Shown here one piece after another: positions 5,464 through 6,821 of a DNA stretch of 49,022 nt. The number at the start of each line of letters is the position of its first letter. The stretch's first letter is position 1. The notes beneath the pieces are model-generated. The model had not been told where the DNA came from. It saw only the letters and a program-made list of their open reading frames with translations, and did no database searches. The stretch spans positions 1 to 49,022 of the forward strand of contig CAMYXV010000005.1 of assembly GCA_947303055.1 (NCBI GenBank), read 5' to 3'. The stretch comes from an uncultured Bacteroidales bacterium (lineage in GTDB: Bacteria > Bacteroidota > Bacteroidia > Bacteroidales > F082). Position numbers and translations under genes: made by a program.

Positions 5464-5505
5464 GCTGTCACATGGTTGCTGAGCCTGTCGAAGTACCGTG
5501 GCAGC
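5464..5505. repeat. Dispersed repeat CTGAGCCTGTCGAAG (copy 1, intergenic) inside an imperfect inverted repeat
   Basis: The core CTGAGCCTGTCGAAG lies at 5479-5493. It is flanked by GCTGTCACATGGT on the left and ACCGTGGCAGC on the right, an imperfect inverted repeat. This is the only copy outside the T9SS genes. Confidence 0.75.
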
Positions 5506-5524
5506 TGGAAAACAAGGATGTAAA

Positions 5525-6256
5525 ATGAGTGAAGAGAATCAAGAAAAAAACGTCAGTGTATGGAATAGGGTGCTGGAGACTAGCCTGCGCCTTCCTTTTG
5601 TGAAGGTCAACCGTGAAGAGTTCCTGACCAAGGAGCTGACTAAGTTTTGCACCCCGATGGAGGTGATGACGGCCTTGGACGATAGCCCGTTGAAAGTGCT
5701 GAATAAGAAGGAAATCGACAAGTTGGCCAACCAATGCATCAGTTACCATCTAACCATGGTATGCGGCACTTCTGCTTTGATGGGCTTGCCAGGTGGATGG
5801 TGGATGGCGGGTACCATTCCTACCGACCTTACACAGTTTTACGGACACATCCTTTCGTTGATGCAGAAGCTGATTTATCTCTACGGTTGGCCTTCGCTGA
5901 CCAATGTCAACAACCAGTTGGACGACGAGTCGCTCAATATCATGACCTTGTTTGTTGGTGCGATGATGGGTAATAAACTGGCTGTCGAGGCCTTAAGCAA
6001 GGTCGTTGGTCAGGTTTCGAAAAATGCGGGAATAAAAGTCTCGGAAACCGTGATGGCTCAGTATGCGATAAAGATTGCGCAATGGATTGGCATCAACATG
6101 ACCAAAGAAGGCTTTGCCAAAGGTGTAGGCAAAGTGCTTCCTTTAGTGGGTGCTCCTATCTCAGCAACAATTACTTACTATACTTTCCGTCCCATGGCAC
6201 GTCGTCTCAAAAAGCATCTTGACGAGCTTTACGACATGCGTCACGAGGGATATTAG
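5525..6256 (+). CDS. EcsC-like membrane-associated protein
   Basis: The 243-aa protein has no signal peptide. Its best feature is ALMGLPGGWWMAGTIPTDL (about residues 84-102), which resembles the glycine/proline-rich core of the EcsC family, followed by amphipathic and hydrophobic helices (MTLFVGAMMG, GVGKVLPLVGAPISATITYY). The function of the family is unclear. The start at 5525 (MSEENQEK) is preferred over 5498 because the extra residues are encoded by the dispersed repeat region. It converges with the small gene at 6253 and overlaps it by 4 bp. Confidence 0.55.
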   Translation: MSEENQEKNVSVWNRVLETSLRLPFVKVNREEFLTKELTKFCTPMEVMTALDDSPLKVLNKKEIDKLANQCISYHLTMVCGTSALMGLPGGWWMAGTIPTDLTQFYGHILSLMQKLIYLYGWPSLTNVNNQLDDESLNIMTLFVGAMMGNKLAVEALSKVVGQVSKNAGIKVSETVMAQYAIKIAQWIGINMTKEGFAKGVGKVLPLVGAPISATITYYTFRPMARRLKKHLDELYDMRHEGY

Positions 6257-6492
6257 TGCTTGAACTCGGTATCGAAAATGTCGTGTAGCTGCAGGTCTGG
6301 AGTCTGCAGGATGGCCTTGTAGTTGAGTTTCTTTTCAGTCATCAACCATTCGATATATTCATCGTTAAAGCTCTTGATTCCCGATTGGTTCATCTTGATA
6401 TAGAGCAGGTTGAGCTTAGCTTTTGCTTCAGTCTCGTTGAGGCCGTCATTGGCAATGATTAATCCGGTGAGTTTGTCCATCGCTTTTTCCAT
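6253..6492 (-). CDS. Small hypothetical protein
   Basis: This 79-aa protein (starting MEKAMDKLTG) looks soluble and helical, with no signal peptide, membrane segment or recognised motif. The start is placed at 6492 rather than 6552 because a TATATTTG -7 box lies at 6522-6529, inside the longer ORF. Its 3' end overlaps the convergent EcsC-like gene by 4 bp. No function is suggested. Confidence 0.6.
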   Translation of the reverse strand: MEKAMDKLTGLIIANDGLNETEAKAKLNLLYIKMNQSGIKSFNDEYIEWLMTEKKLNYKAILQTPDLQLHDIFDTEFKH

Positions 6493-6521
6493 AGTATTGG
6501 GTTTTTGTCGTTTTGAGCTTG

Positions 6522-6529
6522 CAAATATA
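6522..6529 (-). promoter_or_regulatory. -7 box (TATATTTG) for the small hypothetical protein
   Basis: The minus strand reads CTTATATTTGCAAGC, 29 bp upstream of the ATG at 6492. Confidence 0.6.
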
Positions 6530-6694
6530 AGCAAGAAAAGCATATTTGTCAAGGCTTGGAAAGAAAAAAGTATTTTTCGGTTTTAAAAGGTCGGGAAATT
6601 GTCCTAAGAGTATAAGAATTTTGGAACAATTTTCCAATGGAAATGAAATCCGCCTTTTTTCTGAAAATAGTCCTTGCGTTTTTGAAAAAAATAG

Positions 6695-6702
6695 TATTTT
6701 TG
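6695..6702 (+). promoter_or_regulatory. -7 box (TATTTTTG) of the candidate small RNA
   Basis: TATTTTTGC matches TAnnTTTG with no protein-coding start sensibly placed downstream on this strand. It heads the structured segment ending in the terminator at 6785-6821. Confidence 0.6.
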
Positions 6703-6707
6703 CAGCG

Positions 6708-6821
6708 GTTCTTATCATAAAGACCTACGGTTGTGAAAGCAGCCGTAAGTAAAAGGTTTCATAAATTTTGGTTTTTGGTTCTTGAAAATCCCGGCTTTTT
6801 ATACCGGGATTTTCTTGTTTT
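6708..6821 (+). ncRNA. Candidate structured small RNA, about 110 nt
   Basis: The 6493-6828 gap contains no convincing ORF. Instead, a TAnnTTTG promoter is followed by a 9-bp stem (TACGGTTGT, 6726-6734, with GCAGCCGTA, 6739-6747) closed by a GAAA tetraloop. A possible outer stem pairs AGACCT with AGGTTT. A strong terminator follows. The only overlapping plus-strand ORF (6546-6752) starts before the promoter and has no plausible protein features. I cannot assign an Rfam family. Start and end are estimated from the promoter and terminator. Confidence 0.5.
6785..6821. terminator. Bidirectional intrinsic terminator
   Basis: A perfect 10-bp stem, AAAATCCCGG (6785-6794) with CCGGGATTTT (6804-6813) and a 9-nt loop, is followed by TCTTGTTTT on the plus strand. 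It can end the candidate sRNA and also the minus-strand unit that stops at 6829. Confidence 0.8.

Follow-up and report, generated by a model that had tools for sequence, protein, structure and literature searches.

Positions 6695-6821 on the plus strand of the window (the whole stretch of DNA that was analysed, 49,022 nucleotides from an uncultured Bacteroidales bacterium) almost certainly contain a real small-RNA gene. Its own promoter, its own terminator, its conserved structure and the lack of a conserved ORF support a conserved, independently terminated gene, which by its sequence is of the general kind of trans-acting, intrinsically terminated sRNAs. The strongest feature of the sRNA is an invariant 27-nt core. 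This core, the spread of the family across the order, and an ancestral place beside rprXY and usually pgi were missed in the preliminary description of this DNA. As far as the evidence shows, the gene represents a real sRNA family that is unreported in Rfam 15 and in the literature surveyed, with a function that is proposed by inference only.

Homologues were found in 30 of 35 same-genus genomes in a search of 60 related genomes, and alignment divides them into two clades, A and B. The genus is, by inference, Candidatus Limimorpha. The gene lies in a gap of about 336 nt, which extends from the likely start of a 99-aa ORF (ATG near 6492, minus strand) to the stop of a 443-aa ORF (6829, minus strand) and includes no ORF of note. 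This agrees with the preliminary description, in which a gene-free gap of over 300 bp, a −7 promoter and a transcript of about 110 nt were reported. The features of the locus are as follows.

6695-6702, plus strand: Bacteroidota −7 promoter element TATTTTTG (TAnnTTTG), recognised by sequence
6707-6720, plus strand: 5' segment GGTTCTTATCATAA, nearly invariant in the clade A alignment; it may be a second contact site or form a 5' hairpin (GGTT/GACC)
6708-6821, plus strand: predicted sRNA transcript of about 114 nt, placed from the promoter and terminator
6726-6747, plus strand: GAAA-capped hairpin of 9 bp, with varying sequence and conserved pairing (double compensatory changes)
6755-6781, plus strand: invariant unpaired core GGTTTCATAAATTTTGGTTTTTGGTTC, proposed extended seed, defined by identity across the genus homologues
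6784-6821, plus strand: intrinsic terminator, with a stem at 6784-6814 and a T-rich tail, from the fold and from pairing retained across changes

The TAnnTTTG element is present at the equivalent place in nearly all of the 112 homologous loci, a count that is somewhat biased by picking the best match per locus. Judged by its sequence, the promoter is of the sigma-ABfr type. The predicted transcript start was set about 6 nt after the −7 box, and the end was placed in the T-rich tail. The window has no tRNA match and no Rfam 15 match above the gathering cut-off; the best sub-threshold scores (PsrR1, 22.6 bits; rnk_pseudo, 22.5) are far below the cut-offs. Fourteen homologous loci also gave no Rfam sRNA family, and the earlier statement that no family could be recognised stands.

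The fold has an energy of −35.1 kcal/mol compared with a shuffle mean of −23.3 (z −3.55), and it beats 200 of 200 dinucleotide shuffles. The hairpin stem is formed by TACGGTTGT-GAAA-GCAGCCGTA, and the terminator arms are GAAAATCCCGG and CCGGGATTTTC. In clade A, the hairpin has double compensatory changes at 8 of 8 alignment pairs. Hairpin and terminator together hold 56 double-change cells versus 15.5 in shuffles, and 95% of their cells are paired versus 41-57% when the partners are slid. Pairing in the terminator stem survives sequence changes, with 99.2% of cells paired. Clade B has a different, longer 5' stem that likewise covaries. The GAAA-capped stem and the strong terminator proposed in the preliminary description were thus confirmed, together with the covariation among relatives that was to be looked for. 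Its possible outer AGACCT/AGGTTT stem was not supported by covariation: pairing is found in 87%, but covariation does not exceed that of shuffles, because the invariant core includes the 3' arm. An alternative 5' hairpin, GGTT/GACC, competes with it, is equally good (96% paired) and shows no covariation in pair counts.

The core GGTTTCATAAATTTTGGTTTTTGGTTC sits between the hairpin and the terminator, is GU-rich and mostly unpaired, and is identical in 30 of 30 genus homologues from both clades. The hairpin and terminator sequences change between homologues where the core stays identical, and mean column identity in clade A is 71%, against full invariance over these 27 nt. The inner 24-mer of the core gave 106 stretches among GTDB genome contigs. 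Among the matches listed, 105 of the 106 consist of promoter, 5' domain, core and terminator, as judged by eye. The sole exception, in Flavobacterium croceum, has no sRNA unit at the 24-mer site, where the exact complement forms the start codon of a gene together with its ribosome-binding region.

Diverged copies occur in further Bacteroidales families, in which TTTTGGTTTTTGGTT is invariant and lies directly before the terminator. About 295 genomes of the order were searched for them, both with a model and for exact copies of the 15-mer. Because terminators from different clades cannot be aligned, the first sequence-only model (R1) contained no base pairs, and it was employed solely to locate cores. 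One same-genus genome that is 99% complete (G236) gave neither an exact 15-mer nor an R1 match, which suggests that the sRNA was lost or has strongly diverged there. Spread across the phylum was rejected: in a set of 396 genomes, the 15-mer is about as frequent outside the order as its reversed control, and the loci listed are without the promoter-core-terminator arrangement. Within the order, the family occurs in more than 100 gut and environmental genomes, many uncultured lineages of rumen, gut and groundwater carry it, and the sRNA is essentially single copy.

RprXY is a stress-sensing, global two-component regulator, and pgi is a central gene of glycolysis. An RprXY-type two-component gene lies upstream of the sRNA and divergent to it in 73 of 101 classified loci. 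Clustering of the flanking genes showed that in about 65 loci the sRNA is followed, about 100 nt further on, by pgi in the same orientation. The response regulator matches NCBIfam RprY with 325 bits, just under the cut-off of 370. HisKA and HATPase_c domains were identified in the upstream kinase, and the downstream isomerase scores 641 bits, above its cut-off. In clade B, the nearest upstream gene is the response regulator itself. These arrangements show where the gene lay ancestrally: next to rprXY, transcribed away from it, and in most cases ahead of pgi. RprXY is a protein signalling system and the ancestral neighbour of the sRNA gene, not itself an sRNA, and no sRNA adjoining RprXY was found in the literature surveyed. 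In 30 genomes of the order, 17 rprX upstream regions carry at least 11 of 15 core letters directly before a terminator, as seen by eye; such partial 11/15 matches are individually weak evidence. Twenty loci chosen by RprY in other families, Bacteroidaceae-like families included, gave a core-terminator unit in one locus only (L414) and no Rfam sRNA.

TTAAC direct repeats with 10-bp spacing lie between rprXY and the sRNA promoter (L340-L369, L044-L139). Such pairs occur at 0.51 per locus versus 0.001 in shuffles. They are read as candidate RprY binding sites because RprY belongs to the OmpR-type family. In 28 of the 101 loci, including the type found in the window, the sRNA is relocated and adjoins unannotated proteins of 99 aa and about 250 aa; these 28 loci have no TTAAC pair at 10-bp spacing. 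Sequence comparison places the window's copy in this relocated sub-lineage, without rprXY neighbours and without TTAAC repeats. The two proteins next to the relocated sRNA in 28 genomes, of about 250 aa and 99 aa, are encoded in the window at 5498-6256 and 6253-6552, respectively. Pfam matched neither protein in the window, and Pfam and NCBIfam searches were also negative for both in a relative (L035).

A start codon is present in AACCAAAAACCAAAATTTATGAAACC, the reverse complement of the core, and the core complement GAACCAAAAACCAAAATTTATGAAACC resembles an A-rich Bacteroidota translation initiation region (RBS and ATG). In Bacteroides thetaiotaomicron, the long single-stranded seeds of the FopS sRNAs pair with start-codon regions (PMC11697453), and the extended unpaired seed of Bacteroides GibS (BTnc035) was shown experimentally to bind start regions (PMC7366714). 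A translation block by an extended seed is proposed because the core complement resembles an initiation region and GibS and FopS use long seeds. The RNA would be a stand-alone, trans-acting Bacteroidales sRNA whose core pairs with A-rich translation initiation regions, and this pairing would block ribosome binding and thereby prevent translation initiation, a mode demonstrated experimentally for GibS and FopS in Bacteroides. RprY may control the ancestral copy via the TTAAC repeats. The GibS/FopS-like, trans-acting mode of action is judged to have a somewhat better than even chance of being correct.

With FopS, the sRNA shares an intrinsic terminator, a canonical sigma-ABfr promoter and a long unpaired conserved seed (PMC11697453). 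FopS R1' contains TTTTTCATAGTATTAGATTTAAGGTTAAC, and the complement of its seed spans the start codon, as here (PMC11697453). However, the FopS seed is located at the 5' end, FopS is multicopy (14) and it has no 5' hairpin, whereas the core of the sRNA in the window adjoins the terminator. The core and the printed R1' differ in sequence when compared by eye, so that only the anti-start-codon logic is common to both (PMC11697453). The R1/R1' seed sequence that marks FopS and GibS at the 5' end is absent here. GibS also has an extended unpaired conserved seed, but it is 145 nt long, has a 5' seed of another sequence and lies at a locus of para-aminobenzoate and glycogen genes. BTnc049 (RF04179) has a similar order of elements, namely an outer stem, a GUGA-loop hairpin, a U/G-rich single strand and a terminator; homology to it was not supported, with 17.9 bits versus a gathering cut-off of 81.9 (E 0.48).

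Several near matches of the core complement in genus genomes are real gene starts, including those of thioredoxin-like and ComM-like proteins, named by reading their translations. At L144 (G020:C20:111607), the gene of a short HTH-like protein, so named from its translation rather than from a family search, has a 5' UTR perfectly complementary to 20 nt of the core, and the same genome (G020) also has the sRNA. Across 992 genes scanned in 1.17 Mb of a relative (G033), complementarity to the core did not exceed that of 12 dinucleotide-shuffled cores. In the window's own genome (58% complete), the 21-mer complement matched the sRNA gene alone and no near-perfect target complement was present, and no target conserved between genomes was found. 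The downstream T9SS mRNAs suggested as targets in the preliminary description were not supported: their start regions pair poorly (−9.9, −8.2 and −6.0 kcal/mol versus a window mean of −10.9), and the convergent orientation of the neighbouring gene also counts against them. Recurrent stop-codon matches in six clade-B genomes, at first taken for targets, were rejected as same-sense coincidences because part of a protein (KILVFGSNCSG...) seems to be encoded on the other strand.

For an RNA that base-pairs with several targets, an invariant core of 27 nt is long, and such a core might just as well mark where a protein binds. The GU-rich core of this RNA, itself real, may instead serve as the site of an RNA-binding protein, such as an RRM-1 protein like RbpB, which it would titrate, with pairing secondary or absent. 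The same genome encodes an RRM_1 protein (G000:C2:19238-19447, 69 bits), the core is U/G-rich and invariant at every position, and the target signal is not above shuffles. However, the core complement looks like a start region, and RbpB of Bacteroides binds seed-bearing, base-pairing sRNAs (PMC11697453); therefore, protein binding would not exclude pairing. This titration role is considered rather improbable.

In about 65 loci, pgi follows at a distance of about 100 nt on the same strand, which would also suit a leader or attenuator acting in cis on the next gene (ancestrally pgi) instead of a free sRNA. The window and the other relocated copies have different or oppositely pointing downstream genes with the core unchanged, and a separate TATATTTG promoter, located beyond the sRNA terminator, precedes several pgi genes, which makes a leader unlikely. 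It is even less probable, and indeed very unlikely, that the locus codes for a small peptide on one strand or the other. The core complement is a good-looking start region, and the window has a 14-codon minus-strand frame; but no frame is conserved on either strand, the core is invariant even at wobble positions, the hairpin indels break frames, and the promoter and T-rich terminator are both on the plus strand. The seed-pairing sRNA remains the preferred reading.

In many copies outside Limimorpha, the core complement recurs within the 5' domain and is termed the antiseed, such as ACCAAAAATTTATG in L061. In L342, the antiseed is CCGAAATTTTATG and the core is changed to CATAAGGTTTTGG, with pairing kept at 13 of 13 positions. 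In L196, the antiseed is ATTTCATG and the core has CATGAA. An intramolecular complement of the core was seen in L061, L115, L196, L197, L340 and L342, some of which show compensatory changes. Antiseed pairing has a mean z of −1.2 over shuffled 5' domains, reaching −4.5 in L340, and some other copies lack it. Clade B does not have it, and in clade A it is weak or inconsistent. The sequences of these copies suggest that the ancestral sRNA masked its own seed, which the window's copy would not do. Together with these data, it can tentatively be hypothesized that an order-wide sRNA, ancestrally in the RprXY stress regulon, has a nearly frozen anti-start-codon seed that is masked by the antiseed in many families, the window's genus excepted, with hairpin opening as the on-switch; this wider scheme is possible but doubtful.

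To our knowledge, few trans-acting sRNAs are known in Bacteroidota, and most of these are confined to Bacteroides and related bacteria. A family with a frozen core that is linked to rprXY and pgi provides a concrete handle on post-transcriptional control in uncultured lineages. It also offers a clear system in which to ask what keeps a seed constant across such distances.
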